64,000 bases of DNA, taken from contig NW_027331833.1 in assembly GCF_033568475.1 (NCBI RefSeq), positions 4,526,001-4,590,000 on the forward strand. Reading direction: 5' to 3'. The stretch comes from Henckelia pumila. Taxonomy: Eukaryota > Streptophyta > Magnoliopsida > Lamiales > Gesneriaceae. The position numbers and the translations under genes are program-made. Of the stretch, positions 2 to 45,740 are shown in pieces; the stretch's first letter is position 1; every line of letters begins with the position of its first letter. The notes under the pieces are model-generated. The model was not told the DNA's origin, did no database searches, and saw nothing but the letters and a program-made list of their open reading frames with translations.

Positions 2-2632
2 AGATTGTGCATCGACTACCGAGAGCTCAACAGAGTCACAGTGAAGAATAAGTATCCACTACCGAGGATAGAGGATTTATTCGATCAGTTGCAGGGAGCT
101 TCGGTATTCTCCAAGATCGATTTGCGATCTGGTTACCATCAGCTGAGAGTCAGAGATTCAGACGTGTCTAAGACTGCCTTTAGGACACGATATGGGCACT
201 ATGAGTTCTTGGTGATGCCCTTTGGGTTGACCAATGCTCCAGCAGTTTTTATGGATCTCATGCATCGTGTCTTCCAGCCGTATCTAGATCAGTTTGTCAT
301 TGTATTCATTGATGACATATTGATCTACTCGAGGAGCATTGAGGAGCATATACAACATTTGCATACAGCCTTGCAGACTTTGAGGGAGCATCGACTGTTT
401 GCAAAGTTCAGTAAGTGTGAGTTTTGGTTGGAGCAGGTGGCGTTTCTAGGCCACATTATTTCTAGGGATGGGATTGCAGTGGATCAGTCCAAGGTGCAGG
501 CAGTGAGGGATTGGGGGATTCCAAAGAATGCTTCGGAGATTCGCAGCTTCTTGGGTTTAGCAGGATACTATAGGAAGTTCATCAAGGGTTTTTCCTCTAT
601 TGCAGTACCCTTGACTTCCTTAACCAAGAAGAACACGAAGTATATTTGGAGTCCAGATTGTCAGAGGAGCTTTGATCAACTGAAGGATGCACTTACTTCA
701 GCACCTGTGTTAGCTATGACAGTGCCACATGAGGAGTTAGTGGTGTACACCGACGCGTCCAAGCTTGGTTTGGGCGCGGTACTTATGCAGAGTGGCAGAG
801 TTATCGCATATGCGTCGCGACAGTTGAAGATTCATGAGCAGAACTATCCGACGCATGATTTGGAGCTTGCAGCAGTGGTATTTGCGTTGAAAATCTGGAG
901 GCACTATCTGTATGGCGAGAAGTGCAAGATTTTCACAGACCACAAGAGTCTCAAGTACTTCTTCACACAGAAGGAGTTGAACATGAGACATCGCAGATGG
1001 TTGGAGTTGGTGAAGGACTATGACTGTGACATTAGCTACCATCCGGGTAAAGCTAATGTAGTGGCCGATGCTTTGAGTCGGAAGTCGTCAGTGGTATCAT
1101 GTTTGACCGTACAGTTACAACTACAGAGCGAGATTCAGAGATTTGGCTTGGAGTGTTATCCGAGTGGTTGTGCACCGAGCTTGTCAGTGTTGACGGTGCA
1201 GCCAGTTCTGCGAGATCGGATTAGAGAGGGACAGTCTACTGATGAGGAGTTACAGCGATGGAGACAGAGAGATGAGGCTAGAGGTAATCTCTTGTATACA
1301 GTGGAGGATGGTATTGTTCAGTACCGTGGTAGGATGTGGGTACCGAACGTCGATCAGTTGAGAGCTGAGATTTTGGCAGAGGCTCACACATCTCCGTACT
1401 CCATTCACCCCGGAAGTACGAAGATGTACAAAGACTTGCAGCTATTGTATTGGTGGCCCGGGATGAAGAGTGACATCGGGAGAGTGGTGTCAGAGTGCTT
1501 GACTTGTCAGCAAGTCAAGGCAGAGCATCAGCGTCCAGCAGGACTTCTTAGACCTCTTCCTATTCCGGAATGGAAATGGGAGAATATTACGATGGACTTT
1601 GTGGTTGGCTTACCGAGGAGTGCCAGAGGTTGCACAGCGATTTGGGTGATTGTAGATAGACTCACCAAGTCAGCTCATTTCTTGCCGGTGAAGACTACTT
1701 ATACTTTGACACAGTATGCAGAGCTTTACATCAGAGAGATTGTTAGACTTCATGGCATACCAGTGTCTATTGTGTCAGACAGAGATCCGAGATTCACATC
1801 TGCGTTTTGGAAGAGTCTGCACACAGCTTTGGGGACGAGGCTTTTGTTCAGTACAGCATTTCATCCCCAGACAGATGGTCAGTCTGAGAGAGTGATCCAG
1901 GTTCTCGAGGATCTTCTGAGAGCTTGTGTCATCGATTTTCGAGGATCTTGGGAGACTAGACTGCCATTAGTGGAGTTTACCTATAACAACAGCTTTCAGT
2001 CGTCTATAGGTATGGCTCCTTATGCAGCACTTTATGGGAGGAGATGTAGATCTCCGGTGCATTGGGATGAGGTTGGTGAGAGGATTTTGTTGGGTCCAGA
2101 GATTGTGCAGCAGACAGCTGACATCGTGACGCAGATTCGAGAGAGGATGAGGACTGCGCAGAGTCGGCAGAAGAGTTATGCAGATGCCAGACGGCGCGAT
2201 TTGGAGTTCGCAGTAGGTGATCACGTATTCTTGAAGGTGTCACCTATGAAGGGAGTAGCGCGTTTTGGACGGAGAGGCAAGCTTAATCCGAGATATATAG
2301 GGCCATTCGAGATCTTGGAGCGAGTGGGCACGTTGGCCTATCGTTTAGCTCTACCTCCAGGGCTAGCGGCAGTGCACAACGTTTTCCATGTATCCATGCT
2401 TCGGAGATATGTCTCCAACCCGTCGCATGTGTTGGATTTCGAGCCCTTACAGTTGCCACCGGATCTTGTATACGAGGAGAGACCAGTGCGGATCTTGGCT
2501 AGAGAGGAGCGGAGGCTTAGGAAACGGGTCATACCGATGGTCAGAGTCCAGTGGCTGAATCACTCGGAGGAGGAAGCTACTTGGGAGACCGAGGAGGATA
2601 TGAGGACTCGCTACCCGGAGTTGTTCGGGTAA
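2..2632 (+). CDS. Ty3/gypsy chromovirus pol polyprotein (RT, RNase H, integrase, chromodomain), 5' part outside window
   Basis: The frame is open from the window edge to a stop at 2632 (about 876 residues visible). Counting from the first listed Met-equivalent at base 5, the reverse transcriptase catalytic motif FIDDIL lies near residues 101-106. An RNase H domain with a TDAS motif follows near residue 250. The integrase zinc-finger region lies around residues 465-515, and the D,D,E core around 525-660 includes HPQTDGQSE. The C-terminus has a chromodomain-like stretch ([15 protein letters not shown]), the mark of chromoviruses. The domain order RT-RH-INT is that of Ty3/gypsy, and the long following LTR fits the Tekay/Del clade. 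The visible part looks whole. Gag, protease and the 5' LTR lie upstream of the window. Clade placement is inference. Confidence 0.95.
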
Positions 2633-2677
2633 GTACTTTAATTTCGAGGACGAAATTCAATTTAAGGGGGGGAGAAT

Positions 2678-5356
2678 TGTAACACCCGGTATTTTTAAAT
2701 ACGTAAATCCGCCTGCATAATTAGATATTTAATTATTTAAATTTATGATTTATGGGTTAAATAATTATGTGAATTAGTTATGCATGATTTAATTTATTTT
2801 TAAGCATTTAACCCATAATTAGTGATTTTTATGATTTTTAGTATTTTTATTATTTAATCGCGTAGACGGGACCGTGGACGGACGAGATGACAACTTTCTA
2901 GCCAAATTATTTTATGAACCTTTTTGGAGCCTTAAAATATTATTTTGAGTTTTATTATCTCAAAATTTTAAGTATTTAATTTTATTTAATTTTAGGGGTC
3001 ATTTTTATCCAAAATTAGTCAAAATATTGACTTTTTAGTATTTTTAAAATTCCCCTAATTTCTAATTTCGGGATTTTATAAATTATAATTTAAGTTTCTG
3101 ATTTGAACTTTTATTTAGAATGTTTAAATTTTATATTATTTTTTTTAAAACTTTTAATTATTATTAATTAACCTAAAAACCTATTTTCTTAAATATTAAA
3201 ACCTAATCTACCCAACCCCACACACACCCACACGTCACTTTCCCATCAGCCGCCATCCCACCCCTCCACTCTCCTTCCTCGACCCAGCAGCTCAAGAAGA
3301 CACCATAGCCAAGATCTTTGAAGCTCCAAAGTTCATTTTTTGTCGCTCCGTCGTCCCGGAACCGTCCCACGCCCGTGTTTCTTGTCGTCTACGGTGAAAG
3401 GCATGATCTTTTTCTTATTTTTACGCTATATCAGTATATATATCATGTAAGTTATGGTAGGCATCTGAATCTTTTAAGTATTTTTTAGAAAATCGATTTA
3501 ATGTTGTTGATTGCACGCATGATTCATGATTCACGAAAATTTTGTTGGCATGGCTTGGTTCGGGGCTGAGGGTTCGGTCAAGTAAGGTCCTAGGGTGCCT
3601 AAGGATCGAGCCATGGCAGGGTTTGGGGCTGAGAAGGGCTCGGCCGAATGGATTTAAGCTAAAAAGGTGCAGACGGCGCAGGCTAGGGTTCGGGAGAAGA
3701 GGGCTTCGGGTTCCTGGTTCCTGGCTGCATGGGGGCTGGGGCCTGGTCAGGTTAGGTCCGCCCGGACGTGGGCTACGTCCGGGCGGCGGCGCTCCGGCCA
3801 GGGGCGGCCGGAGCCGGCCGGCAGCAGGCCAAGAAGGCCTGCTGCTCTCGGCCGAGACGTAACAAGAGAGGGGGAAGTCGGGCTTAGGGTTTCTGGTGGT
3901 TTCCGGGTCGGGTCTTGGGTCCGGGTCGGGTCAGTAGGTTAGTGGGTCGGGTTAAGTGGGTCCGGGTCCGGGTTATTTTAATTCGGCTCGGGTATTTTTA
4001 TTTTTAAGTTTTTAAGTTAATTAGGAATTAAATGGGCTAATTAAATTCCCAAAAAAATTAATTAGTACCATTTAATTTATTTGGGTTCCATTAAATTATT
4101 TTGGGTTATTTTATTTATTTTTGGGCTTTTAATAATTTTTATTTAAATTTTTAAGTTGGCCAGAAATTTTTATGGGCTTGGGAGCCCATGAAAGTTATTG
4201 GGCCTGTTATTGGACTTTAGGGCCCATTGGGCCAGGGACAGTGTTATTGGGCCTAATTTAGTCTTAATGGGCTTTGGTTGATTTATTGGGCCAAGTCTTA
4301 AGTTAATGGGCTTGCATGTCTAGGGCCAGCAGCTGAATCAAACCATGAGAAATTTGCATGTGTCCTGAGTTTATATTTAATTATTTTTATGCATGAAAAG
4401 TTATTTGAATATTTATATGATATTAGAAAATAACTTAAATATAAATGAAGGACACACAATTTATTTAAGTACATGCATTCATGAAATCAATTTTTATGCT
4501 ATGATTGAAATTCTATGGTTGAGCAAATAAAAATATTTTAGGTGGAAATTGAAGTAGTGTGGCCATTTATGTATGGGCAGTTTCTGCCATTTATGTATGG
4601 GCAGTTTTCTGCCATTTATGTATGGGTGGTTCGCCACCAGCCTCGTACGATGGTTTCTTAGACTGATCAGTCGCACTATAAGTATGGGTCACACTTACGG
4701 ATAGGACCATTCGATGTTAAGAAAATAAGTGCTCAACAACTCAAATATGTATGATATTATGTATGTTATGTATTATGTTATTTATGTTTATTTAAGTAAG
4801 TTATGTTATGTAATTTTAAGCATGCTCATTCATGTATATGTATGTATTAGTATTAAATTGATTTAAATTATTTTAAACCCTTGTTAGTATGCATGTTGGG
4901 CCTCTAGGCTCACTACACTGATATGGTGCAGGTGAGTACGTAGAGGAGCAGGTTACTCCTACCGGTGGTGAGGACGTATGAGCAGTGCTGCAGTAGCCCC
5001 GTGACCGTGACAGCTTCTGAGTCACCATATATGTTATGTTATGATACATTTTAATATTTTCATGGGTTGAGGTGATTGAATATTTTATTAAATATTTTAG
5101 TGCATGCACACTTTTTATTTATTTTATTTATGCAGTACATTTTGAATTATAGAGGTTGACTCAGATAATTATTTATTTCAAAGATGCATTTTACTTAAGT
5201 ATTTAATTGTTTATTTATTTAGTCATGTATCTATTTTAAATATTTTATTATGTGCATATATGTATGGGCATATATGTACATATTTTATTTAGTAGTAAAA
5301 AAAAAAAAAAAAAATTTCCGCATATTTATTTATTATAGAGTTAGTGGGTCGTTTCA
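2678..5356 (+). repeat. 3' LTR of the Ty3/gypsy chromovirus
   Basis: A purine-rich tract (about 2664-2675, eight G in a row) lies 45 bases after the pol stop and is the likely polypurine tract. The LTR starts TGTAACACCC and ends GGGTCGTTTCA, the usual paired ends of plant Tekay-type LTRs, giving about 2.68 kb. It holds a GC-rich palindromic block near 3740-3850 inside otherwise AT-rich sequence, and a short tandem repeat at about 4558-4630 (unit CCATTTATGTATGGGCAG). The 5' LTR is outside the window, so the target duplication and LTR divergence cannot be read here. Confidence 0.85.
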
Positions 5357-22856: not shown

Positions 22857-23831
22857 TGGGTTAATGGGTCTCCCATGAGGGCTGACCCATACCCGATGAT
22901 TCAAATTTTGAATCATTTGGAGGGAGTGATTATTAGTTACTAGCAAGCGTGGCACACACGTTGCGTGTGTAACTAAAAAAAGTGGCGACACCTTGATGTA
23001 TAACTTAATACATGTTCTAAAAATAAATCTAATGCAATCAAATAAGATAAATAAAATATGTTGAAAACTTATATTTGGTCAGAGTTAAACCCAAATTATC
23101 TCAAAAACTGAGTAGGTAATGGATGATCAAAGACATTACCATTCCCATGTTATTTATATGACACAAGGCGTTCCTTCTTCATAAACCAAATAATGGGATG
23201 TTTACATAACATTAATTTGGATCAAACCTTAAATCCATATGCCTTGGAATTAAGTAACAAATATTTCCATAAACAAAGAGACTTATTTCATTCAAATTTT
23301 ATTTCTCTACATAAATCTTTCGGCTCCCATCTGTAGATTTTGTTTCCATTGAAAGTCAAATTTACGTGTCCTCTGATTGATAATTGGTTCTCGAGCCTTT
23401 GCAATAAAAAGACATTGAAAGTTTTTAATATACAGTGAAAAACCCAGCGAAGATAAAATTAAGACTACAAATGCTACCTGTATATTCTTGGCAATCCCAT
23501 TTTGAGATAGAGCCCTGGAAAGAGCAAACAAACCACTCTGGGGACTACTTACATATGAATCCAAAATAACAACCTGCCCAAGTACCACATAGAGCAAAGA
23601 CAAATTGCTTACATCTTTTATTATTTAATTAAAGATGAGAATCCTATAGAAACTTATTGGTACGTTGGTGTGTTAATGTTTTTATTTTACATTTTTGCCC
23701 AGTCAGTTATTAACCACGTTCTCTTCCAAAACTTACTTTTTCCCCAAAAACCAACTCAAATCCCACCCCTCCCAATAAAAAATCCTTCTACTCGGCTCCT
23801 ATTTATTTCTCTTTCAGATCAATCATCCAAG

Positions 23832-23873
23832 ATGCCGAATTTCATTCAAGAGTCCAGAGCCCAATCGATTTTG
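23832..23873 (+). pseudogene. captured first-exon-like fragment in Helitron copy 2
   Basis: An ATG opens 14 codons (MPNFIQESRAQSIL) ending at a strong GTGAGTG donor in phase 0. A matching acceptor (TTGATTCAG at 24483-24491) starts a second in-frame stretch, GFEEELLGYGSPSKE. The inverted copy lies in copy 1 near 29032-29044. The parent gene is not recognised. Confidence 0.45.
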
Positions 23874-26156
23874 GTGAGTGTTATAGTGCTATGAAATTCC
23901 CGTTCACGCTTTTTATTTTTGTTTGAGGAAATTCTGAAAAAAAATTCAAACAAATACGAGTGTTATCAACATATTTTTGGCATACTCAGTTGGCAATCTG
24001 GAAAAAAATCAAGCAAATACGATCTACCTTCACCACCAGTATCAGAAATAGTTTTATGTTTTACCAATTTTCGAAAATCGCTATATTTATTTGTTGTATA
24101 TTTCTGTTCGATTTGTTTTTATATTTGGGTTGAGGTTGCCTTTATCTGTGTGCTTATTTTAGAGATTTTCGAAAATTGGTGAATCATAAAACTATATATA
24201 TTGAAAATTGGATAGTCGGTGGTGATAGATTTGAGATTTTAATGATTATCGTTACGGTTTGTTTGTTTGTTTTCTTAATTTTATTTTGTGTTTATATTGG
24301 TGCGTTTTTGGGTGTTCTATCTTGGCTTCTATAAAACTTATTTACAAAAAAAAATTAATTTTTTTGTTTATTAATATGCTTTTACTCATCACCAAATATG
24401 TTCTACCTCGGGTTTCTTGCAAAAACCAACTAAACCAGTTAAACTTGACATTCAATCCTTGATAAAATTTTCGGTGGATTGATTGATTCAGGGCTTTGAA
24501 GAAGAGTTATTGGGATATGGAAGTCCATCCAAGGAAATTTTTTTTGCAAAATCCGGACCTAACCCCCACCCTTGAGCTTAGATCCACCAATATTATTTGA
24601 TCTAATTTTGTTCAATTTATGTTGCTTCACACATTGATGATTATCAAATTATGTTCTCTCTTATATCATTGCTATAATCTATTGGGTAAAGAGGCTACTA
24701 TTATTTTTCTCATTTTTTAAGTTTGTATTTTGTATGACTAAGTAGAATTTTCCTTACATTAACTATTTTTTTCATCGTTTACTGTTTTATTAAGAATGAG
24801 CAAGGTAAAAAAACTGATTGGTACTATTGGTACGTCCAATTTTAAATCACAAAGTACTAGGAAAAACAGAAAACAAATCACAAAAAATCTCTTCTCCCTC
24901 TTCGATTCTCCGATTTTGTTAAAAAAAATCACTTTTCCCTCTCCTGAGATCGTGGGTCACACAAAGATGGGGTCATAACCACTGACATGTTTTACATTCT
25001 CAATATGAATCTTGATTCTTAAATTTTGCTAAATTTATATTTACTGATTACTCAATCCAAGATGTTAGTTTTTTTACTGCAAGCGTGTGTTCAACTTCAA
25101 CTCATGGTGATATGTTACATTCGTCTTTCCAATTATTCTTGAAATTGATTTCTCTTTTTAGTGTTCTAATGAACTCAACCTTTACCATTAGGAGATTTAT
25201 TATTTTCTTTTGAGAACTCCATAAAAAAAATTCTAATAGGCCGTATTATAGAAAAAATTCTTACTAAATGGTAAAATATAATGCCTACATGGTCGATGAT
25301 TAAAGGACGACACATCTGAGTTTCGTATAACATTTCAATTTTTATGATTTATATAAAACTTGATGTCATGCTACTTTATTTTATTCAGGATTGGAAAAAA
25401 ACATTATTTTATTTTGTCATGCTACTGCTTCAAACCAATACATGGTCCTCAGCTTTCTCATTCAAAGTTGCAAATTACGTGGCTCTGTTTCTCGGAAATC
25501 TCAGCATCAATAGCAACTCCATGTAGTTACGGACGTCAGCTTTGCATTTCTAGCACATTTTTTGGTGAGACCTCTTATCTAGATTGTCATTCTTACACTC
25601 TTTAATATGTTTATTTCATTGGATTTCTATATACTTCTCTCGGTTATGTTATTATGTTACGCAAACAACATGTTTGACAAAATAAAAAGCTCAATGTTCC
25701 AAAGCCAATACCACCCCTCTTATGGCAGTTTCTGAAGCTAAGTTACATAGATGTTATTCATGCTAGATTCACCATCAACTTGCTGATATTTAACAAGATA
25801 TGAATAAATACACATGTTGTTATGCGCCCGGGTCTTATTGTGTGTTTTTATACAATAAAAACAATTTACAACTTATCATACTTAGTTTGAGTGAATTACT
25901 CGGTTGAAAAAAAAACTTATAAAATTTTTATTCTGCCAATCTTAAAATTTCTTCCTGTTTAAATTGTTATCAAATTGATTAAGGCCTTGGGTGAACTCTA
26001 AAAGCATTCCGATGGGATAGATGTTATGGTGATTCACATTTATTTTTGATTTGCACTTATTTCATATATTTTTTTGTTTCTTCGGTTGGCCTTTGGGTAT
26101 GCAAGTTAATATAAAATGTAAGCAATTTGTCTTTGCTCTATGTGGTACTTGGGCAG

Positions 26157-26252
26157 GTTGTTATCTTGGGTTCATATGTAAGTAGTCCCCAGAGTGGTTT
26201 GTTTGCTCTTTCCAGGGCTCTATCTCAAAGTGGGATTGCCAAGAATATACAG
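26157..26252 (+). pseudogene. captured 96-bp exon-like fragment in Helitron copy 2
   Basis: The segment is bounded by an acceptor (TTGGGCAG) and donor (ACAG/GTAGCA), is in phase 0, and reads 32 codons including VVILGSYVSSPQSG and ALSQSGIAKNIQ. Copy 1 carries it in reverse at about 23485-23580 with a few substitutions (Gly to Asp, Ser to Asn). The intact splice signals suggest capture of a real host exon. I do not recognise the parent protein. Confidence 0.5.
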
Positions 26253-29200
26253 GTAGCATTTGTAGTCTTAATTTTGTCTTCGCTGGGTTTTCCACTGTAT
26301 ATTAAAAACTTTCAATGTCTTCTTATTACAAAGGCTCGAGAACCAATTATCAATCAGAGGACACGCAAATTTGACTTTTAATGGAAACAAAATCTACAGA
26401 TGGGAGCCGAAAGATTTATGTAGAGAAATAAAATTTGAATGAAATAAGTCTCTTTGTTTATGGAAATATTTGTTACTTAATTCCAAGGCATATGGATTTA
26501 ATGTTTGATCCAAATTAATGTTATGTAAACATCCCATTATTTGGTTTATGAAGAAGGAACGCCTTGTGTCATATAAATAACATGGGAATGGTAATGTCTT
26601 TGATCATCCATTACCTACTCAGTTTTTGAGATAATTTGGGTTTAACTCTGACCAAATATAAGTTTCCAACATATTTTAGTTATCTTATTTGATTGCATTA
26701 GATTTATTTTCAGAACATGTATTAAGTTATACATCAAGGTGTCGCCACTTTTTTTGATTACACACGCAATGCGTGTGCCACGCTTGCTAGTTTTATATTA
26801 ACTTGCATACCCAAAGGCCAACCGAAGAAACAAAAAAATATATAAAATAAGTGCAAATCAAAAATAAATGTGAATCACCATAACATCTATCCCATCGGAA
26901 TGCTTTTAGAGTTCACCCAAGGCCTTAATCAATTTGATAACAATTTAAACAGGAAGAAATTTTAAGATTGGCAGAATAAAAATTTTATAAGTTTTTTTTT
27001 CAACCTGGAAATTCACTCAAACTAAGAACGATAAGTTGTAAATTGTTTTTATTGTATAAAAACACACAATAAGACCCGGGCGCATAACAACATGTGTATT
27101 TATTCATATCTTTTTAAATATTAGCAAGTTGATGGTGAATCTAGCATGAATAACATCTATGTAACTTAGCTTCAGAAACTGCCATAAGAGGGGTGGTATT
27201 GGCTTTGGAACATTGAGCTTTTTATTTTGTCAAACATGTTGTTTGCGTAACATAATAACAGAACCGAGAGAAGTACATAGAAATCCAATGAAATAAACAT
27301 ATTAAAGAGTGTAAGAATGACAATCTAGATAAGAGGTCTCACCAAAAAATGTGCTAGAAATGCAAAGCTGACGTCCGTAACTACACGGAGTTGCTATTGA
27401 TGCTGAGATTTCCGAGAAACAGAGCCACGTAATTTGCAACTTTGAATGAGAAAGCTGAGGACCATGTATTGGTTTGAAGCAGTAGCATGAAAAAATAAAA
27501 TAATGTTTTTTTCCAATCCTGAATAAAATAAAGTAGCATGACATCAAGTTTTATATAAATCATAAAAATTGAAATGTTATACGAAACTCAGATGTGTCGT
27601 CCTTTAATCATCGACCATGTAGGCATTATATTTTACCATTTAGTAAGAATTTTTTCTATAATACGGCCTATTAGAATTTTTTTATGGAGTTCTTAAAAGA
27701 AAATAATAAATCTCCTAATGGTAAAGGTTGAGTTCATTAGAACACTAAAAAGAGAAATCAATTTCAAGAATAATTGGAAAGACGAATGCAACATATCACC
27801 ATGAGTTGAAGAAAAAAACTAACATCTTGGATTGAGTAATCAGTAAATATAAATTTAGCAAAAGTTAAGAATCAAGATTCATATTGAGAATGTAAAACAT
27901 GTCAGTGGTTATGACCCCATCTTTGTGTGACCCACGATCTCAGGAGAGGGAAAAGTGATTTTTTTAACAAAATCGGAGAATCGAAGAGGGAGAAGAGATA
28001 TTTTTTGTGGTTTGTTTTCTGTTTTTCCTAGTACTTTGTGATTTAAAATTGGACATACCAATAGTACCAATCAGTTTTTTTACCTTGCTCATTCTTAATA
28101 AAACAGTAAACAATGAAAAAAATAGTTAATGTAAGGAAAATTCTACTTAGTCATACAAAATACAAACTTAAAAAATGAGAAAAATAATAGTAGCCTCTTT
28201 ACCCGATAGATTATAGCAATGATATAAGAGAGAACATAATTTGATAATCATGAATGTGTGAAGCAACATAAATTGAACAAAATTAGATCAAATAATATTG
28301 GTGGATCTAAGCTCAAGGGTGGGGGTTAGGTCCGGATTTTGCAAAAAAAATTTCCTTGGATGGACTTCCATATCCCAATAACTCTTCTTCAAAGCCCTGA
28401 ATCAATCAATCCACCGAAAATTTTATCAAGGATTGAATGTCAAGTTTAACTGGTTTAGTTGGTTTTTGCAAGAAACCCGAGATAGAACATATTTGGTGAT
28501 GAGTAAAAGCATATTAATAAACAAAAAAATTAATTTTTTTTTGTAAATAAGTTTTATAGAAGCCAAGATAGAACATCCAAAAACGCACTAATATAAACAC
28601 AAAATAAAATTAAGAAAACAAACAAACAAACCGTAACGATAATCATTAAAATCTCAAATCTATCACCACCGACTATCCAATTTTCAATATATATAGTTTT
28701 ATGATTCACCAATTTTCGAAAATCTCTAAAATAAGCACACAGATAAAGGCAACCTCAACCCAAAGATAAAAACAAATCGAACAGAAATATACAACAAATA
28801 AATATAGCGATTTTCGAAAATTGGTAAAACATAAAACTATTTCTGATACTGGTGGTGAAAGTAGATCGTATTTGCTTGATTTTTTTCCAGATTGCCAACT
28901 GAGTATGCCAAAAATATGTTGATAACACTCGTATTTGTTTGAATTTTTTTCAGAATTTCCTCAAACAAAAATAGAAAGCGTGAACGGGAATTTCATAGCA
29001 TTATAACACTCACCAAAATCGATTGGGCTCTGGACTCTTGAATGAAATTCGGCATCTTGGATGATTGATCTGAAAGAGAAATAAATAGGAGCCGAGTAGA
29101 AGGATTTTTTTATTGGGAGGGGTGGGATTTGAGTTGGTTTTTGGGGAAAAAGTAAGTTTTGGAAGAGAACGTGGGTAATAACTGACTGGGAAAAAATGTA

Positions 29201-29623
29201 AAATAAAAACATTAACACACCAACGTACCAATAAGTTTCTATAGGATGCTCATCTTTAATTAAATAGTAAAAGATAAAAGATAATAACCTCCCTAATCCC
29301 ATAATCTTATGGGTGGTATGGGTCGTATGGCAGAAGTTAGTTGCTTCAATTTCTGTTCTAGTTAGTTGCTTCAATTTCTGTTCTTCTTAAAGTGCAAGAC
29401 CGTCATTCCAAATTACACAATCAAGATATCATGTTTTGAAGCATTTGGGTTGTGAAATTGATTCCTTTCCGTTCGTGATCGGAATCGGACCATTGCATTG
29501 CTATTTTCGTCGGAAGAAAGGTTGGTAAATTCAATTACGTTAACGATCCTGTCTCGAATTAAGTGTATTCGATTCGAAATATTTGAGTTTGACTCGAAAG
29601 ATTCGAGTTCTAATTTTTCGTCA

Positions 29624-30265
29624 TTCGTATCAGAGTCTGCGTTAGTTGAATTTCTAACTTGGTTTCGATGTTTAAATGCATTCGTTTGATTCAGAAATGG
29701 ATTTTGGTTCTGTTTCTTCAAGGAAATCGAAACTGCATTTTTTGTTAAAAAAATTTAACATGTACAGTTTGTTTTCTTTTGGACAGCACAGAAAGCACCA
29801 TTTTTATTAATATGTGTTAATTGATGGACGGCAAATCAGAAAACAAATTGAGATGGTTCACTCTTGCATACATATGTGTCAAAATAATAGGGCATGCATA
29901 TTCAAATATATATATTGCTGCATGTAAATCATTTCTTTGAAGTGGCCAAGCGGTGCATTTTTTTAATGTTGCACAGATGTAATATGGTGGACCGTGGAAG
30001 GGAGAAACAATTAGCATGCATTTAATTATATATTAGTTTACCACATAATCATTAATACGTGTACGTTATCAATGGCCTAATACCAGTTTTTTTTTGTTAA
30101 TTGTTCAACACGTATGTTCCTCGGTGAAATTTTTTTTCCAGATGCATAAGTCATCATTTTTTTAAGAAGGCATGATTGTTTTAAATATTAAGAGGCATGC
30201 CTAAGATCCAATATTTAATAGTCATGAAAATGCTTATGCATGATCGGTCCAATATTTTGAGAAAA
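29624..30265 (+). other. copia leader, first part
   Basis: Follows the primer-binding site. AT-rich sequence without a recognisable coding domain. Confidence 0.5.
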
Positions 30266-31267
30266 CACTACAAGAAAAAGCTCATACCGTCACTCAAAAG
30301 ACAACGCTTTTTGTAAAAAGCGTTGCGTTTTTTTTTATAGACAACGCTTTCAGTGAAAAGCGTTGTCTATATATATTTTTAATTTATAAAAGACAACGCT
30401 TTTGCAAAAAAGCGTTGTATATAATTGTTTTTTTTTGTCAAAGACAACGCTTTTTAAAAAGCGTTGTCTATGAGCGTCCTTTTATTATCTACAACGCGCT
30501 TTTTAAAAAGTATTGTCGATGATTTTTTTTTAAAATTCTGGCCCCAAAATAAAATACACGCATACAATATATTTCTCTCTCCTCGAATTCTCTCTCTCTC
30601 GGCATATCTATCTTATTTCTCCCTTCACCATTTCTAAATTTCAAACCCCGATCTACGCCGCCTCGTTGCTGGAAAAGGTGATTTGAGCATAGATTTAGAA
30701 TCCTCTCGTCGAGGGATTTCTTCCGGTACATATTTCCCTAATTTTTAAGCACGCTCCGTCGAACCCTTTTTCCAGACGTCATCGTTTCGCCGTCCCTTCG
30801 CCGTCGCCGACCGTCGCCTAGGCTCCTTCCCGCTTCTGGCAAGTCACAAATTAAATTCTGCCTGCCGTCGATGGCCGAGTCGTGCCGACCGCCATAGCTT
30901 TCCTCACAAAAGGTATTCTTGCATCTGTTTCCTCACAGAAGATTTGTGAAAAATTTTCAATTTCAGTGTAGCTCTTACATCTTAGGGAATCCGCTCGATA
31001 TCTTCTAAGATTTCATTATCTTGGTTATAATTTCTAATTCTGAAGATACGCTGTTTGTTATAAATCTTTCTTGAGGATTGGACATCACAATTTAAATTCT
31101 TGCTGATGTTTTTTTCTTGGATTTTAGTTTATAGATAGCTTTTGTCCACAATCACCATGTTCTTGCATCAAGCAAAAGTTGCTAATATATTGCTAAATAT
31201 TTTATCTTTAGACTCATAGTGTTATTTTTTTTAGGCTTTTGTTGTCCTCTTGCTGTGTTTTGTGCAG

Positions 31268-31334
31268 TGAATTTCAAGTTTGGCTCAAATATGTACCAAG
31301 GATTATCTTTCGGACAGACAATGAGCCATTGAAG
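31268..31334 (+). pseudogene. exon-like segment in the CACTA element, parent unknown
   Basis: A GTGCAG acceptor precedes a stretch that reads FQVWLKYVPRIIFRTDNEPL in one frame, followed by a GTTACTG donor-like site. The short length and lack of a recognised family keep this tentative. Confidence 0.25.
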
Positions 31335-31727
31335 GTTACTGTTACCCATCTTTTTAACGTTTTGCTATTAATTTATGTAGCTTAATTTATAGTTATTTGT
31401 GTTCTTGCCAAAATTAATTGCTGATTGTTAGTTCTTGATATTAAGTTGATTTATCTCGATGTGAGAGATGGCTATGAAAGGGTTTACTGAAAAAATTGTG
31501 AATTTGAGGAAAGAGTGAAAATCTGTATGAATAGCAGGGTGACCCCATTATACTCTCACAGGTGTGAATGTCAAATCATGGGTGAATTTGATTTTACTGA
31601 TTATAATATATACTAATTTCATTGTCGGGTTTTTGAGTAATTGATTATGTAGTGCTAAACAGTGAATTGAAGACTGAGAATGAATATGGACCACAAGCAA
31701 GATCACTTGGTGCACCAGGTCCTCAAT

Positions 31728-31970
31728 TTTAATTCCAATCCTGCGACTCTTGTAGATTTCACGCTCACTAGCCTTGAGGATAGCTCTGTGAAGTCGTTGT
31801 TCTGCGCCATTTGTCTTGGAAAATTATCCGCTTTCCTTTAATTTTTCCGGCAGGCAATCGAGCAGAAATGGAAGCAGTGGTGGCGGCAGGGCCCCCAACT
31901 ACTGTATGCTTCATGGGCTCGAAGTTCCGCCTTTACTCGGTACTTCATTATTGTGTGCAGTTGTTATGAT
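31728..31970 (+). pseudogene. GC-richer, exon-like segment in the CACTA element, parent unknown
   Basis: This region has a more balanced base composition than its surroundings and a frame reading NFNSNPATLVDFTLTSLEDS before a stop near 31840. A further stretch rich in Gly/Ser (GSSGGG) follows in another frame. It may be a captured 5' coding or UTR piece. I cannot name the parent. Confidence 0.25.
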
Positions 31971-34646
31971 TCAAGGGCAACTTTCTAAATTCTTTGTTTT
32001 TGTAGTTGATGAAAGATAAACCTTGGTTGCTGTTTTTGGGAAAATGGGTCGTTTTAGTTTTGATGGATGGAAATGATTCTTTTGTTATTTTATGAATTCT
32101 AGTGTTTGCTGTTTCGAAGATGGAACAATATAAAGCTTGGAGAAAGGAGGTTTAGTTCATTGAATAGGCAGAGGTATTTTTCCTGTATCTTTTTTCACTG
32201 GTTTCTGATGAATCTGTAGCTTCTCTTGGGTTTGTGTCATTTCATTCATTCTCTGTTTGACTTGTATTCAATGGCTTAAAGCTCAAAGTTCGATCTACCA
32301 AACATTCAATTGAAGTTTATTTGATGCTACATGTATGACACAAAAGCTAAAGGGTACTATTGACAAATATATGGTGGGGATGGTAACGAAATTTGCTTAT
32401 GCATGACATAAAAGCTTAAACATGGAATGTGATAATGTAAGTTTATGCTTCTTAATTGTCATACTCCCGTTTAAAGAAAGAAACAGCTTCGAAAATCTAT
32501 AGATTTTAATGAAAACTGGAATACACTATTTTTGTTTAATTCCTTGTTGAAATAAATTTTAAAATGGGTTTGGGTATGTGGCACATTCGAATCATTTCGA
32601 TAATTGAACGAGGTAGTTAGAAAACAATATAATTTTTTTTATATAGGCTGAAGTAGATACACATTTATGTCTAATTTGTGCTCTTATAAAATCTGCAATT
32701 TCTTGTTCTTAAGCACTTAAAAAAACCTTAATATTTTAGCATAAAAGAATTTTTTGAAAAGCTTTTTTTTCAATCTAATCACACGTTGAACTTCAAATAT
32801 TTGATTCTTTGATTTGATAAGTTCTGCACTCTCCTCATTGTATACAAGTTTTTATGTACTAAGTTTGATTAAATTTCTGGAAATTCTTCATTTGAAGTGA
32901 TTGTTGGATTGTGTTATGCTTTAGGATATAAATGGAAGTCTTCTAACTATTAGACTAAACAATATGCACAGACAAGTTGTATGCATGCAAAGGCGCAAGT
33001 AGCAAACATACAAGACAAATGTTAGTAAAGTCAATTGAACGTATTTATTTTATTATTAATTTGGTAACTTTATCTTATGTATTTTCAGTTTATTTTAATG
33101 TGCTCGAGATTTATGAAAATTTATGTGTTTTATTGCTGGCATGGATTTGTTTCTCGGAAATGTTCATGGAAGAATTGTGTTTAATATTGTCGATTTTTGT
33201 TTAATCACGCTACTGAAATTTTTCATTTGTTTTCGAGTGTCTGAATTGAAGCTTGGTTATTTTTAGCCTTGTATAAAATTTCTAGTGGCCTAAATTGGTT
33301 TGAATCATGTTAACCTTGATGGTCTAGAATATTTATCTTGATGATGAAGATTACCATAATCATTTGAAAAAATATGACCTAGAATTTAAATGGTTCTTGA
33401 AATCCTGCCGAGAGGGCAGACCCAAAAGGGGTCAATGAAAAAAAAAACAGATGTTTTTGAAAAAAAACATAATAATAATAATCAAGTTTTGCCCCCTCAT
33501 CGGGTCCATACCTGGATACAAAACGTTTGTATATTCCATATTATGATTTATATGAACAGTGCATTTGCAACTACTCAATTGCCACAAAAAATAATAAAAT
33601 TAAAAGCACCTGCAAATGATATTGGATATAGCTTGCACCTTCTGTCAAAATTCTATATCTAATAATTGACCTTTTATAATGTAGATTTCTAATTCATTGA
33701 TTTTTTCTTAAAATATAAAGTACCCTATTTGCATCCATTTTTCCTTGAATTCATTTTCTAGTTGTACTTTGCAGGGGACTTTATCATGTTGTACTAGGTA
33801 TGGAGATCAGCTGACTCATATCTTGTGTATGTTATTATATATCATTGTTCAAGAGCCAAAATAAACAATCCCAAGTACTGAATTTTAACTTTTTTGTTTG
33901 TACAGGGATTCTATTTTCTGCCATGATAACCGCATTCCTTACTGATGTTGTTTTCTGATCTTTGCGATACAAGTACCTGGAATCAAAACCAAAATAAAAA
34001 AGGAAAGCTAGGTGAAAGATTCATACATTGACACGTATATATGATCTATATTTATCAAAATTTATTAATGTCTATTTTGTCTAATGTTCCCCTTCTCGTT
34101 TCTTATTACCCATGTTGGTGTCTACTCAATTTGAACAAAGAATAGGTTGGCAGAACTACTATTCATTGCAATATTAGACTTCTCTAACCAACTTTCACGG
34201 TTTTGTGCAGGTTATGGAGATACATACATGCAGTCAATTTGAGGGAGATGATATTTGTGTATCATATATGTTTCTTTCGACATGATTCTTGGTGCATATT
34301 TGATTGGTAACATTACGGCCTTGATCGTCAAATGATCTTTTTCTGTTTTATTTTTGTGCCAATGAAGTGTTTATTGTGTGGTTTTTGTATATTGAATTTT
34401 TGTGAAAAATGATTGCTGGTCATGAGATGCTTATAGGGTTTCTTAAGGCTCAGTTTCTTGGCACATATTTGAAATAACATCATTAGAACATGCCTATAGG
34501 TTGAAGTTTTTCTTTTCTTGTGATTTATGTCTTATGTCAGCTCACTTTCATTTTTTTGTCATGCAATTCTTTATTTCCTCCAGTCTTAAATATGCATGTG
34601 GTGCTTCTTGCTTAGAAATTAAAATTCTTGTTTGCTCTGAAAGAGG

Positions 34647-34764
34647 AGGTATCCGAATTATAAACGTGATCACCAGAAAGCTCATGGGCTAAGTGCATGG
34701 AAACGTGAAGGTATCATCGGTGTTGCTGCACTAACTGGAGAAACCTTGATGGCTATTACTGGAG
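34647..34764 (+). pseudogene. captured exon fragment resembling DUF726/TMCO4-like protein
   Basis: One frame reads RYPNYKRDHQKAHGLSAWKR then EGIIGVAALTGETLMAITG before a GTATAC donor. The GIIGVAALTG-TLMAITGG pattern is the hydrophobic signature I associate with plant DUF726 (TMCO4-like, alpha/beta hydrolase-type) membrane proteins. The usual Gly-Gly-Thr appears as Gly-Glu-Thr. Only this exon is clear, and the rest of the gene was not found. It lies inside the CACTA element and so is best read as a captured fragment, not a working gene. Confidence 0.55.
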
Positions 34765-35646
34765 GTATACAAACTTTATCACTCATTAAATAATTGAGTA
34801 ACAAAGTCATTATTGTTAAATCTAGTATCTGAAAATAAGCTATTTCCGCATTCCTTAATTAAATGGATCACAACTTGATAATTCCAATCGCTTAGTGATA
34901 ACTTCGTAATTCGTAGTTCATTTGATCATTTCAATCGCTTAGTGATAGTTTCGTCATTCGTAGTTCATGTTCTTTTACTGATAAATGTGTTTGCTTTTAC
35001 TTTTCATTATAATCTATTTATATTTGTTTTTATTTTTAATAATTTACAGTATGGGGATACAAATTAAAAAAAAAGAGATTGTTGCGGCTTTTATGAAAGC
35101 TTGGGACGCTAACATGTGCTGAAGGAAGGAATCAAAGTTTTTCGAGATTAATGCATAGTTTTTCCTAGTGTTCATTAATTTAGAATTCGATTATTTTTTT
35201 ATTTGAATGATTTATAATATAGGAAGACTCTATATTAAATTTTATTCTACAAATTTTTGAATTTTGAGTGATTTATAAAATTGAAAATTTGTGAATTAAA
35301 TTTTTTTTTGTTTTTTATTTGAACAAAGACAACACTTTTTAAAGCGTTGTCTTTACCAAAAAAGACAACGCTTTTTTGAAGCGTTGTCTTTTCCAGATAC
35401 AACAACACTTAAAAAGCGTTGTCTTTTCCAGAAACGATAATGCTTTTTATAAAAGACAACGCTTAAAATGCGTTGTTGTTTTTAGATACGACAACGCTTT
35501 TTAAGCGTTGTCTTTTCCAGAAACTACAACGCTTTTTCCGCGTTGTTTTTGAGCGTGGTCTTTTACAACACTGGCTACGACAACGCTTTTTTGGGGACAT
35601 TAACAACGCGGAAAAAGCGTTGTCGTTAGCCGTTTTTCTTGTAGTG

Positions 35647-36846
35647 AAATTAAAGACTTCGTGGTTTTTTAATTTTTAATATAATTGGACAATCCATTTT
35701 GTAATTGGATTCTGAAATGAGTATGTGATTGTTTAGCATGATTATGAAAATCATTTTTTTTATATGGGTACATGAAATTCATAATAAGAGTTTATGTGTT
35801 TAATATAAAAGAATCTTGTCCATATATAATATTAAGAATGTGAGATTGATTTTATATATCATGAATATTAAATATTATGGTTGGCTTTGTGTCCAATATA
35901 ATATTTATTCTCATATTATATAGATATGGCAAGAATTAGACACGCTCTTAGCATCCTTCGTGGAGCAGCTAAATTTCAAAGAGCCCCGGAACGAATAGCA
36001 AAATTGCACATGTTTAAGCAATATAACATGAATCACATGCATAGTATGCCTCAACATATTAAAGTTTGGGAGGACATGCGTATGGATCTTGTGCATTTGG
36101 GTAATTATTTTTGAGATTATGATAAATTTTGAATATTGAGAAATTCCCTGCCTGGACATTGGAAGAACATATTCGATGAAATAATTAACGAAAGGGAATA
36201 TTCGTCGACCTTCCTTGATGATGTACAATCATCACTGATTAAAAGATGGAGGAAAGAGGTAGAACTCGAGATGAAAAAGTCATTATCTTTAAGGATAAAT
36301 ACTGGTGCTCGTCTCTTGAAGTTCGCTCCATCTGACATGCTCTCAAAGGAAATGACCAAAATGATAACCCGCATGTGCAATAAGAAGAAATTAGATTTTA
36401 TTTAGGGAAATTACTTGTTATAATCTACGTTTTTATGTTTAGTTGTAAATGTTTTATATGAACATGTTATCTGACACAAGTAATGTAGTTTATGTTTTAT
36501 TTGTATTTGAATATTAGCATGTTGTAAAATTTAATGTTAGTTTATGTAAATACATGCTTATCTATATATTTCTATTTGGAATTTATAAAGATATTCCAAG
36601 TTAAGTGGGAGTTTTAGACTGGAAGAATTTGAGTGATTCTCACCTAAAATCATTGATATAATTTTTTTTGTAACTTTGAAATTAAATTTATGATGATGAC
36701 ATTAGGATTGTAGATGATGATTGGGAGCTTAGTGAACTTTCGAATCTATGATGTTAAATCATCATAGATGTTAATTACAAGTACAAAACTAATGTGTACA
36801 TTTAATGAGCATTAACATGTGTTATCACATCTAAAATATACAGACC
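35647..36846 (+). other. copia leader, second part, with unassigned coding-like stretches
   Basis: Between the CACTA element and gag lie two separate short frames. One at about 35926-36114 begins MARIRHALSILRGAAKFQRA. The other, at about 36136-36405, is rich in charged residues (KRWRKEVELEMKKSL). Codon use looks less random than the surrounding AT-rich DNA. I do not recognise either. They may be an extra element gene or captured host sequence. Confidence 0.35.
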
Positions 36847-39800
36847 ATGGCATCCAAATCTATCATTGCTGATCTTAACAAGGGTGACAAACTGAATGGT
36901 GACAACTATGATACTTGGCGCCATAAGATTTGGTATGTGCTTGATGAGCAAGATGCCTTAGAGGGTATCAACCAAATCATGCAGGATCCCGGTGTGGGTA
37001 ATACTGTTCAGCAGAGGAGAGATCAAGAAGCTTACCAAGCATGGAAAAAGAAAGATTCAACTGCTCGTGCTATTTTGGTTAGCTCTGTGATTGATGATCT
37101 CATCCATGAATGTGAACAACATACTACTGCTCATGACATTTGGGTGTACCTGAGGGAGAAATATGGAGGTACCACTGTCACCCGCCTGAGGCAATTGACT
37201 ATCAAGTTTGACACTTACAAGAAACAAGCTGATCACAACATCAAATAGCATTTGAGAACTATGTCAAACATGATACATGAATTGACATTAGCTGGTCATA
37301 TTCTCTTTGATGAGAAACAAGTTCAAGCTTTGATTCGATCTCTTCCTGACAAGTGGGAGCATCTGAAAGTCAATCTGACTCACAATGATAGCATTAAGAC
37401 TTTCTCTGATGCTGCTCGCCATGTTGAACTTGAGGATGAGCGGCTTGGTGCTGCTAAGTCCATAGCAAGTGCGTTTGTGGCTGAATCTAGTTCCAAGAAA
37501 TCTTCGGGCTTTAAACGTTTTAAGAACTGGAAGAATAATAGGAAGGGAAAGAATGTTGTGGAAGGATCCAAGAAGAACAACTTCAAGTCAAACCAAAAGA
37601 GTAAGCGTAAGAGGTTATGGAAGAAGAAAGATAAGAGCAAAATGAAGTGCTATAATTGTCAAGCATTTGGTAATTTCGCTCGTGAGTGCCCTGATCCTAA
37701 AAAAGGTATCACTTAATAATGCTTTTGTGAGTACTATATGTGTCTCTAGTACTGTTTTATTAAGTGAATCTTATCCTGTGTGGATTGTAGACTCAGGAGC
37801 AACAAACCATGTAACTAGAGATCGTGAAGCGTTGGCAGATTTTCGTCGAGTTCCTAGTGTGTAGATGGATATATGTAGGAAATAATGCAAGAGTTGAAGT
37901 CAAAGGAATCGGTACTTGCAAACTTGAGTTGCATGAAGGCCGAACTCTTATTCTACATGATGTTCTCTATGCACCGGAAATTCGACGAAATCTAGTATCT
38001 GTTGTTGTTCTTCTAGGATTAGGATTTTGTTTGAACTTTAGTAGTACTCTTGTTCGTATCTACTATGGCAATATGCATTATGGTTATTTTAGAAATCGTT
38101 TTATTGTGTTAGATTGTGACAGACAAATGTTTAACTATTATGTAGATCGATGTGTTTCGTTAAATGTTTGTTCATCTAGTCATGCAAATATGGATGCTTA
38201 TACTTGGCATGCTAGATTAGGTCACATAGGGCAAGACAAGATGAATCGACTAATGAAAGTAGGACTATTGGGTTCTATTTCTAAAGTTGATTTTTCGAAT
38301 TGTGAACACTGTCTTGCTGGTAAAATGACACAAAAACCATTCGAAAAAGCAATTAGGGCAGAATTCCACTGCAATTGATTCATTCAAATATATGTGGTCC
38401 AATGAGTGTGAAGGCTAGACATGGAGCCTCTTACTTCATTACGTTTATAGATGATTTCACTCGTTATGGTCATGTCTATTTGATTTCACATAAATCTGAA
38501 GCATTGGAATGTTTTAGACGTTATGCAAATGAAGTGGAAAACCAAATTGACAAAACAATTAAGGCTTTGAGAACTGACAGAGGTCGTGAATATCTATCAG
38601 ATCAATTTAAGGATCTATGTAATGAAAAGGAAATAATTAGACAATTGACTACTCCTTACACACCTCAGCAAAATGGTGTTGCTGAGAGAAGGAATAGAAC
38701 ATTGTTGGATATGACGAGGTCCATGATGGCGCAAGCTAATTTTTCTATTTATTTTTGGGGCGATGCTTTATTAGTTGCGGCCTATATCCTGAACAAGGTA
38801 CCTTCAAAGTCATTTACTTCCACGCCATATGAACTTTGGACTGGTAGGCAACCGGATCTCAGTAATCTTAGACCTTGGGGATCAACAATTTATATTTATG
38901 ATTCTACAAGTAAATATGGAAAGTTGGGTCCTCGAGGAAAGAAGTGTATTTTTATTAGATACTCTTAGCATTCTAAGGGTTACGTGTTCATTGGTGAACA
39001 TGATGATGGAAGCATTACTGAGATTAAATCACGAAATGTAAAATTTCTGGAGAATGACTTTCCTAAGCGAGGTGAAATAAAAGGGAATGAACCTTTATTT
39101 GAGTTATCTGATTCAGATAATGGGTTGTTGTCAAATGAGTCATCAAAAACTCAAGTGGATGAGTTTTTGTTTGATCCCAGTGGGAGAAATCCTGATCACA
39201 ATGATTCATCTGATCAGAGTGGGAGAAATCCTAATGGTCCTGCTCAAGATGATTCATTCGATCCGAGTAGGAGCAATACTGATCATATTGATTCATCTGA
39301 CCTCCAACTTCGAAAGAGCAATAGGAAAGATATGCCTAAACGTCATTATGACATCGAGGGGCACACATATATCATATCTTCAGTTGATGAAGAAGAGCCT
39401 AAAAACATAGATGAAGCTTTATCTTGTCCTTCGAGGGACAAATGGATGAATGCAATTGACGAAGAAATGGATTCAATGAAATCAAAAAAAATTTGGGAAC
39501 TAGTTGAAATTCCACATGGTCGTAAAGCTATAGGGAACAAGTGGGTTCTCAAAATTAAGCGAAAGGCTGATGGAACAATAGAGAGGTATAAGGCTCAACT
39601 GGTGGCAAAGGGTTACACTCAACAAGAGAGTATTGATTATGAAGAAACTTTTTCGCCAGTAGTGAGATTTACTTCTATTCGTCTGTTGTTGACCATAGTT
39701 GCTTATTTGGATTTAGAATTATATCAAATGGATGTTAAGACTGCTTTTATCAATGGAGAACTTGAGGAAGAAATCTACATGGAACAACCAGTAGGTTTTG

Positions 39801-40960
39801 TTGTTAAAGGTCAAGAAAACAAGTTTGTAAATTGAATAGATCAATTTATGGCCTTAAGCAGTCTTCTAGACAATGGTATTTGAGATTTCACAGAGCGATA
39901 ATCTCATATGACTTCATTATTATTGACGAAGACCATTGTGTTTATGTGAAGAGATCCAATAGAAAGTTTGTAATACTATCTCTTTATGTCGATGACATAT
40001 TGTTAGCTGAAAATGACAAGGAGTATATAGAAACCATTAAAAAGTGGTTGTCCTCGAATTTTGAGATGAAGAACATGGATGAGGCAGATTACATTCTAGG
40101 TGTTAAAATTCACAGAGATCGTTCTAAGAGACTGCTTACATTGTCTCAAGAATCTTACATTAAAAAGGTTCTAGAGCAATTTAGAATGTCGAATTGAAAA
40201 CCCATTGATACTCCCGTGGCCAAAGGCAAGAACTTAAGTCATGAAATGTACCCAAACACTTCTGAAGAAATCCATGAGATGTCCAAAATTCCATATTCCA
40301 GTGCAGTTGGGAGTTTGATGTACGCAATGATGTGTACTCGTCCCGATATTTGTTATGTTGTGGGTCTGGTCAGCAGGTATCAATCTAATCCAAGAAAAAA
40401 CACTGGAGTGCGGTTAAAAGGATTCTGATATACCTAAAAGGCACTACAGATTATTTCCTCTGTTATCAAGGAAAGGATCTAACACTGATGGGATACACAG
40501 ATGCTGACTGGGGTGGTGATTTAGATGAGCGTAAATCCATCTCTAGATATGCTTTCTTGTTAAATGGTGGATGCATATCTTGGAGAAGCAAGAAACAAAC
40601 ATGTGTATCTCTATCCACAATGAAAGAATAATTTGTGGCGTGTGCTTCTGCAGTGCAAGAAGGTGTTTGGTTGAGAATATTTCTAGATCATTTAGGTGTT
40701 GTAAGCAGTCCAGTGGGAGCTGTAACAGTTTATTGCAATAATCAATCAGCAATTGCTTACAAAAAAGATCCTAAATATCATGAAAAAACCAAACATATCG
40801 ATACAAATTACAATTTCATCAGAGATATTGTTGAAAAAAAGGAGGTGACTTTGAAATACATGCCTACGCGCATGATGGTGCCTGATCCTTTTACTAAGCC
40901 AATACCAAGAGATATCTTCATTGATCATGTTAGATCTCTTGGAATACGTAGGATGTGATT
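36847..40960 (+). pseudogene. copia gag-pol fossil
   Basis: Domains appear in copia order: gag (about 36850-37600) with a CCHC zinc knuckle (CYNCQAFGNFARECPD, near 37650), aspartic protease (WIVDSGATNHV, near 37780), GAG-pre-integrase and integrase (about 38190-38900), reverse transcriptase (about 39450-40200, with YVDDIL near 39990) and RNase H (about 40480-40930). Integrase before reverse transcriptase identifies Ty1/copia. The reading frame carries roughly eight breaks, so this copy is inactive. Lineage within copia was not determined. Confidence 0.9.
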
Positions 40961-42015
40961 GTATTAAAACACATGAATAATTAAGACATTGTGCTCATTA
41001 TTATAAGAATGTTTATTATGCGCTATGTGTACACATTTATTTTATGAATTTTTATCTGCGCATTAAAGGTATGTTTGAAAAGTTTGAGATTGGCTCTCTC
41101 ACACGAGCAATCGCCTCTGATGTTGAGAAACATGCAGAGATGAGACAATATTGATTTTTGTGGTGAATAAAATCAATACATATGTTGCCTTGGTCATGAA
41201 TTCCCAAGATGAGATTACTTTATGAAATTGTAATCGGAATGGATTTTTCCACAATCCATTAAACTTGTTATAACTAGATTAGAGTTTTCAATATATTGAT
41301 ACATGATGGAGGATAAACGAGGTGAAAACTCAAGTTAAGTGTTGAGACACACTTGAACTAAGATCTGTACGATGTGAATATTATATGTATGACATACGCT
41401 TCCAAAAGGAGGAAAAATCACATCGTAGCACGTGTTTTCATACCACGTGTACTGAAGTGACCATCTGGATAATGAGTAGATGAGTCCCAACTCATCGTGT
41501 GAGATCTGTAGGTTTAAATACAAACCTAATCTTATACCCTTAAGACTTTCAACGTTTTTTTAATTTTATTTTAGTGTTGCTACTTTAGCATGATACCAAT
41601 AACTGGACGATTCGGTAATGCGGTACATGTCTAAGAAAGCAGCTAAAATAGAAATTGAAAGATTTCAGTAGGAAAGGAAGATTTATTTTGACACTCATTT
41701 GGTATTCACTAGCCGGCTAATTATGTTTAAAATAGATGTTAGAACATAATTGTGAATACATCAAGTATGCTCTTATTATTTTGTATGGGACGAGAGATAC
41801 GTTGATTAGTGTAATAATAAATCTGGGGTATAACGAGTAGATATACTCATGAATATTATGAAATGAGCTGCTATATATCCTTAACAGGTGTATGGTTATA
41901 TGCTCTGGTTTAATATTCTCGTTGGTCACACGATCCATTTGATTGTATGAAATTGGTGGTATATGATTGTGAATAAACTAGACGAAAGGTCTAGCCCTCA
42001 TGTGCGAGTGGGAGA

Positions 42016-42429
42016 TGTAAGAAATAATGGGTTAATGGGTCGCCCATGAGGACTGACCCATACCCGATGATTCAAATTTTGAATCATTTGGAGGGAGTGG
42101 TTATTAGTTATAATAACCTCCCTAATCCCATAATCTTATGGGTGGTATGGGCCGTATGGCAGAAGTTAGTTGCTTCAATTTCTGTTCTTCTTAAAGTGCC
42201 GAGATCATCATTCCAAATTACACAATCAAGATATCATGTTTTGAAGCATTTGAGTTGTGAACTCGATTCCTTTCCGTTCGTGATCGGCATTGGACCATTG
42301 CATTGCTATTTTCGTCGGAAGAAAGGTTGGTAAATTCAACTACGTTAACGATCCTGTCTCGAATTAAGTGTTATTCGATTCGAGATATTTGAGTTTGACT
42401 CGAAAGATTCGAGTTCTATTTTTCCATCA
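42016..42429 (+). repeat. copia 3' LTR
   Basis: It starts TGTAAGAAATAATGG right after a purine-rich tract (GAGTGGGAGA) and ends in TCA; length 414 bp. It is the uninterrupted partner of the 5' LTR and preserves the empty Helitron insertion site at 42110/42111. Confidence 0.88.
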
Positions 42430-45046: not shown

Positions 45047-45723
45047 ATTTATTTATTTATAAATATTATTGCAATTATGCTAGCTACATTTTTTTTTTCT
45101 AAACTTTATACTTTTGAATGTGCATCATTTTCAATATTGAAGAACTAACAAACAATATATAAGTTGAGGGATATTATAATTTTAGGGATGAGCCAAAAAT
45201 GGGAAAACCAATAAAAAGAGATTCATTGTATTTAATGTCCAAATGTTAATGTTAATAATTGCTATTAGTCATTTAAGATGGACAAAAAATGACTAATGAA
45301 CCCACAAAAGAAATTTTTTCTAGCTTATATAGTGAAGGATATAGGGGAAATTTACAATTGGAAGTGGTATATTTATAATATAGAATAGATAGATTTATTT
45401 ATTTATAAATATTATTGCAATTATGCTAGCTACATTTTTTTTCTAAATTTTATACTTTTGAATGTGCATCATTTTCAATATTGAAGAACTAACAAATAAT
45501 ATATAACTTGAGGGATATTATAATTTTAGGGATGAGCCGAAAATGGGAAAACCAATAAGAAGAGATTCATTGTATTTAATGTCCAAATGTTAATGTTAAT
45601 AATTTCTATTAGTCATTTAAAATGGACAAAAAAATGACTAATGAACCCACAAAAGAAAACTTCTAGCTTAAATAGTGAAGGATATAGGGACAAATTCACA
45701 ATTGAAAGTGGTATATTTATAAT

Positions 45724-45740
<17 letters not shown>
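45047..45740. repeat. tandem duplication, two units of about 347 bp
   Basis: Unit 1 is about 45047-45393 and unit 2 about 45394-45740. They are highly similar, differing by a few substitutions and small indels. They share the block TATGCTAGCTACATTTTTTT and later GGGATGAGCC. GATA arrays border the pair on both sides. There is no coding signal. Confidence 0.85.

Follow-up and report, generated by a model that had tools for sequence, protein, structure and literature searches.

Two copies of one Helitron family, apparently non-autonomous, lie one inside the other and in opposite orientation in the window, i.e. in the whole 64,000-nucleotide stretch of DNA that was analyzed, and the outer copy in turn interrupts what is most likely a long terminal repeat (LTR) of a copia-type retrotransposon. 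We assign a probability of about 0.95 to the reading that this arrangement arose by three nested insertions, namely of the copia retrotransposon, then of copy 1 and then of copy 2, the latter two as Helitron transpositions. According to this reading, a copia-type retrotransposon (about 22857-42429) would have inserted first, the non-autonomous canonical Helitron copy 1 would have entered its 5' LTR in minus orientation between A and T, and copy 2 of the same family would finally have entered copy 1 in plus orientation, likewise between A and T. For each Helitron the TC and CTAG ends would thereby have been joined to A and T with nothing gained or lost, and each most likely moved as a single strand by means of RepHel, an enzyme with HUH nuclease and helicase parts that another element would have provided. 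We infer the rolling-circle mechanism and the action of RepHel in trans by analogy: the Helraiser work (PMC4778049), from which the mechanism of strand transfer by the RepHel enzyme is taken, describes insertion between A and T as preferred, not absolute, and the 3' hairpin as the terminator.

Copy 2 inside copy 1

The inner nest is made up of the following features:

23614-26790, plus: Helitron copy 2, 3177 bp, TC...CTAG, placed by its ends, the flanking A and T and its match to copy 1
26791-29281, minus: 5' part of Helitron copy 1, 2491 bp, with a tandem TCTTTTA at its 5' end, which is fixed by the uninterrupted LTR
22940-23613, minus: 3' part of Helitron copy 1, 674 bp, ending in CTAG, placed by its match to copy 2
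26116-26117: uninterrupted position within copy 2 that corresponds to the inner insertion site, placed by alignment of the join

Comparison of 23614-26790 against the window by blastn gave two reverse-strand matches, one between copy-2 bases 1-2503 and 29274-26791 (97.8%) and one between copy-2 bases 2494-3177 and 23623-22940 (97.2%). Over the whole window both meet at the two ends of copy 2, and their ten-base overlap reflects low-complexity similarity at the join. Two full copies of the family were found in the window by this search; the total length of copy 1 (22940-23613 plus 26791-29281) is 3165 bp. Judged from the alignment, the identity of about 98% over 3.1 kb excludes a chance similarity between the copies.

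A preliminary description of this DNA had placed copy 2 (plus) within copy 1 (minus), and the blastn matches, which abut at the ends of copy 2 on the opposite strand, bear this out. The TC of copy 2 is indeed preceded by A and its CTAG followed by T, as had been stated, and the same is true of copy 1. The alignment which had been proposed as a check, that of the joined copy-1 flanks against copy 2, proved to be gap-free at the join. No base has been gained or lost there, again in accordance with the description: the 20 bases on either side of the join agree at 40/40 positions and the 200 bases on either side at 394/400. Shifting the right flank by a single base lowers its agreement from 199/200 to about 80, and shifts of 1 to 4 bases either way leave 55-81 matches; one base (T) at the join is assignable to either side. 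GCTTACA plus TTTTATATTAAC was found exactly at the uninterrupted site in copy 2 as described, the position, given as near 26119, being corrected to 26116/26117. Overall, the sequence agrees with the claim of a Helitron inserted into a reverse-oriented copy of its own family without target duplication. Neither the retrotransposon around the nest nor the outer empty site figured in the description.

Copy 1 inside a probable LTR

The host element and the outer empty site are outlined by four further features:

22857-22939, plus: left piece of the copia 5' LTR interrupted by copy 1, placed by LTR alignment
29282-29623, plus: right piece of the interrupted LTR, followed by a primer-binding-site-like sequence, placed by LTR alignment, end placed by eye
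36847-40197, plus: copia gag, integrase and RT frames, broken, with Pfam matches in that order
42028-42429, plus: 3' LTR without interruption, serving as empty site for copy 1 with A and T at 42110/42111, end placed by eye, polypurine-like tract upstream

The sequence flanking copy 1 is one member (22857-29623, interrupted) of a direct pair whose other member is 42028-42429. With respect to the sequence context this pair most likely represents LTRs: its two members enclose frames for copia gag, integrase and RT, as identified with Pfam, on the same strand. Furthermore, TCGTATCAGAGTC follows the left LTR and, with 2 mismatches to the motif, resembles a primer-binding site, and AGTGGGAGA before the right LTR is presumably the polypurine tract. 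The two LTRs appear likely to belong to one retrotransposon insertion. They could come from different copies of one family, since inspection of the outer flanks by eye revealed no 5-bp target duplication of the retrotransposon, the left LTR start appearing damaged and its place being uncertain, and since the left LTR is short of the first 12 bases if the LTR starts with TGTAAG as the right LTR does; the empty site of copy 1 stands regardless.

The 5' end of copy 1 consists of a 7-base tandem, TCTTTTA, whose extra unit is absent from copy 2. Consequently, comparison with the sister copy alone would misplace this end by 7 bases: the alignment with copy 2 stops at 29274, and it is the uninterrupted LTR counterpart which decides for 29281, the outer bound originally given. 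The joined copy-1 flanks agree with 42028-42429 at 117/120 positions when copy 1 ends at 29281 and at 79/120 when it ends at 29274. Because the uninterrupted LTR matches far better with the end at 29281, copy 1 is defined as 22940-23613 plus 26791-29281 and its site as lying between A and T. The possibility that copy 1 sits in a palindromic element, at which its flanks had hinted, was dropped once the uninterrupted LTR was found.

Two further observations concern the host retrotransposon. The left LTR contains a 25-bp perfect tandem duplication (29335-29384) that is single in the right LTR, and a CACTA-like DNA transposon (30266-35646) with inverted CACTACAAGAAAA ends, AAA on both sides and GACAACGCTTTTT-type repeats near both ends separates the left LTR from the copia gag frame.

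Ends, hairpins and coding content of the Helitrons

The TC is located at 23614 in copy 2 and at 29281 in copy 1 (minus), the CTAG ends at 26790 and 22940 (minus), respectively, and both empty sites reveal insertion between A and T with no target duplication. A 3' hairpin precedes each CTAG end:

26761-26777, plus: copy 2 hairpin with a stem of 7 bp, 13 nt upstream of the 3' terminus
22954-22970, minus: copy 1 hairpin with a stem of 7 bp, 14 nt upstream of the 3' terminus

Substitutions between the copies have shifted the hairpin register, yet a 7-bp stem is present in each. Compared with shuffled sequence, both hairpins have only a marginal advantage in folding (z -1.88 and -0.94, with 8/200 and 32/200 shuffles equalling or surpassing them), and taken alone the hairpin evidence is weak. 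Inspection by eye indicated that the two ends of the Helitron, which are defined for the family from two copies only, look unlike each other.

The longest stop-free stretch in copy 2 amounts to 95 aa, which is too short for RepHel, and the sole frame of at least 120 aa listed for copy 1 (28961-29374, 137 aa) starts outside this copy; within these bounds no RepHel transposase was found. Among 36 listed stop-free segments of copy 2 with at least 38 aa, 10 were scanned against Pfam for captured genes and none of the 10 reached the cut-off. The single match, SecG, was rejected at 13.4 bits against a cut-off of 29.2. A putative 32-residue exon had no match in PDB sequences. When the 18-base 3' end of the Helitron was searched in IMG/VR viral contigs, it occurred in a single contig, where inspection by eye revealed no corresponding hairpin, and this was taken as chance.

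Because of the TC/CTAG ends, the flanking A and T, the lack of a duplication, the hairpin and the absence of a long stop-free stretch from copy 2, both copies look like non-autonomous Helitrons of the canonical type. With canonical (Helitron1-type) non-autonomous Helitrons they share the terminal TC and CTAG, the hairpin 13-14 nt upstream, the insertion between A and T without duplication and the lack of an intact transposase frame. No difference of kind was found; copy 1 merely carries the 7-base 5' tandem.

Divergence and order of the insertions

Between the two Helitron copies there are 48 substitutions, of which 34 are transitions and 14 transversions, over 3154-3155 aligned sites, corresponding to a K2P distance of 0.0154, and 6 indels, the largest being 19 bp and the extra TCTTTTA of copy 1 standing outside this count. 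The LTR pair exhibits 17 differences in 401 sites (K2P 0.044), a divergence that is distinct from that of the Helitron pair (Fisher p 0.001) and fits the order of retrotransposon first and Helitrons later. As copy 2 is nested in copy 1, its position implies that it must have arrived after copy 1. Plant substitution rates are of the order of 1e-8 per site per year. At this rate the Helitron pair would have diverged no more than roughly a million years ago, which gives a ceiling for the insertion of copy 2.

A post hoc comparison by region gave 31/2481 differences in the 5' 2.5 kb (23614-26116) versus 17/674 in the 3' 0.67 kb (26117-26790; p 0.02). Otherwise no clustering of the differences along the copies, of the sort expected from gene conversion, was evident (p 0.55 for the variance of spacing and p 0.81 for the longest identical tract). 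The 19 bp of copy 2 that are missing from copy 1 (25076-25094) include GCAAGCGTG, by eye the reverse of CACGCTTGC at the Helitron 3' end, possibly by chance.

The low divergence of the copies would also suit a more direct relationship, in which copy 2 is a daughter of copy 1 that reinserted into its own parent after starting at the inner TC of copy 1; the start of copy 2 does align with the inner of the two TCTTTTA units. We nevertheless consider such a direct self-insertion unlikely. It is not required, as a divergence of 1.5% fits any recent members of the family, and comparison with a relative at 63 kb puts the changed base in copy 2 and not in copy 1 at 3/3 informative sites (a fourth differing site was uninformative), which are too few to decide.

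Inverted repeats are an assembly hazard, and a foldback or chimeric read might in principle have produced the inverted arrangement. This is hardly credible here: the junctions coincide exactly with the TC and CTAG termini and are bordered by A and T, the copy-1 flanks rejoin as an intact LTR, and the substitutions and indels between the copies make one molecule read twice unlikely. Equally little credence is given to an inverted duplication or recombination of two neighboring copies without transposition, for although two long inverted copies adjoin, such a process would not keep both element ends intact and let the host copy rejoin base for base.

Inverted-repeat structure of the nest

Together the two Helitron copies form an inverted repeat whose arms measure 2503 and 2491 bases, with 674 bases as the spacer. 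Were a neighboring promoter to transcribe through it, it would make a hairpin RNA directed against its own Helitron family and might act as an off switch similar to Mu killer, which we regard as quite improbable. If true, a silencing locus would arise simply by self-insertion in reverse orientation. Mu killer of maize is described as a partial inverted duplication with a proposed hairpin RNA that can silence MuDR (PMC3440606). Both are long inverted transposon repeats that could fold as RNA; Mu killer is a duplication of a transposase gene, whereas the present nest arose by insertion.

Comparison with published Helitron nests

Nested and oppositely oriented Helitrons have already been published, and the kind of event is known. 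In Fusarium oxysporum, a putative autonomous FoHeli is reported to harbor a non-autonomous one, and Fig. 8 of the same study depicts Helitron self-insertion in opposite orientation (PMC5148889). The present case shares with the FoHelis the position of a Helitron within a related Helitron. The FoHelis resemble Helitron2, and in their nest only the inner element is non-autonomous, the outer being putatively autonomous (PMC5148889), whereas two non-autonomous copies of canonical type are involved here, and both empty sites fall in one stretch. For maize, a further report states, citing earlier work, that HelAs prefer insertion near or inside other Helitrons, that nested Helitrons can be many, and that nesting is a proposed source of several-ended elements (PMC3288121). 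A nested intermediate was hypothesized there for helitron_mc2 (PMC3288121), whereas in the window such a nest actually exists and its insertion site can be read.

The locus is a clean example of a known event and leaves general knowledge of Helitrons unchanged. Its value lies in the fact that, within 64 kb, a single Helitron family offers two empty sites readable to the base, so that no second genome is needed to fix both ends; insertion between A and T with no duplication is shown twice, and the divergence of LTR versus Helitron pairs gives the time order.

Other features of the window

Part of the Helitron (25422-25703) resembles 63542-63830 (minus) over about 290 bp (84% alike), which could be explained either by a captured gene start or by a shared older repeat. 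Part of this Helitron-like region is tandemly repeated at 63221-63606 with a period of about 192 bp. Ten segments from 56.7-64 kb scanned for protein families gave only matches under the cut-offs. No tRNA was detected in the window with bacterial settings, and Rfam yielded no match at gathering scores in the window.

The window also contains a permease-family gene, which, like the types of retrotransposon and the CACTA-like element, would be in keeping with a plant genome. At 5-2632 there is a long open frame of gypsy type that matches RT, RNase H and an integrase zinc-binding domain, its chromodomain match being just below the cut-off (25.0 vs 25.1 bits). A unit of about 344 bp occurs twice in tandem at 45047-45737, the two being 94% alike and adjoining GATA and ATAG microsatellites.
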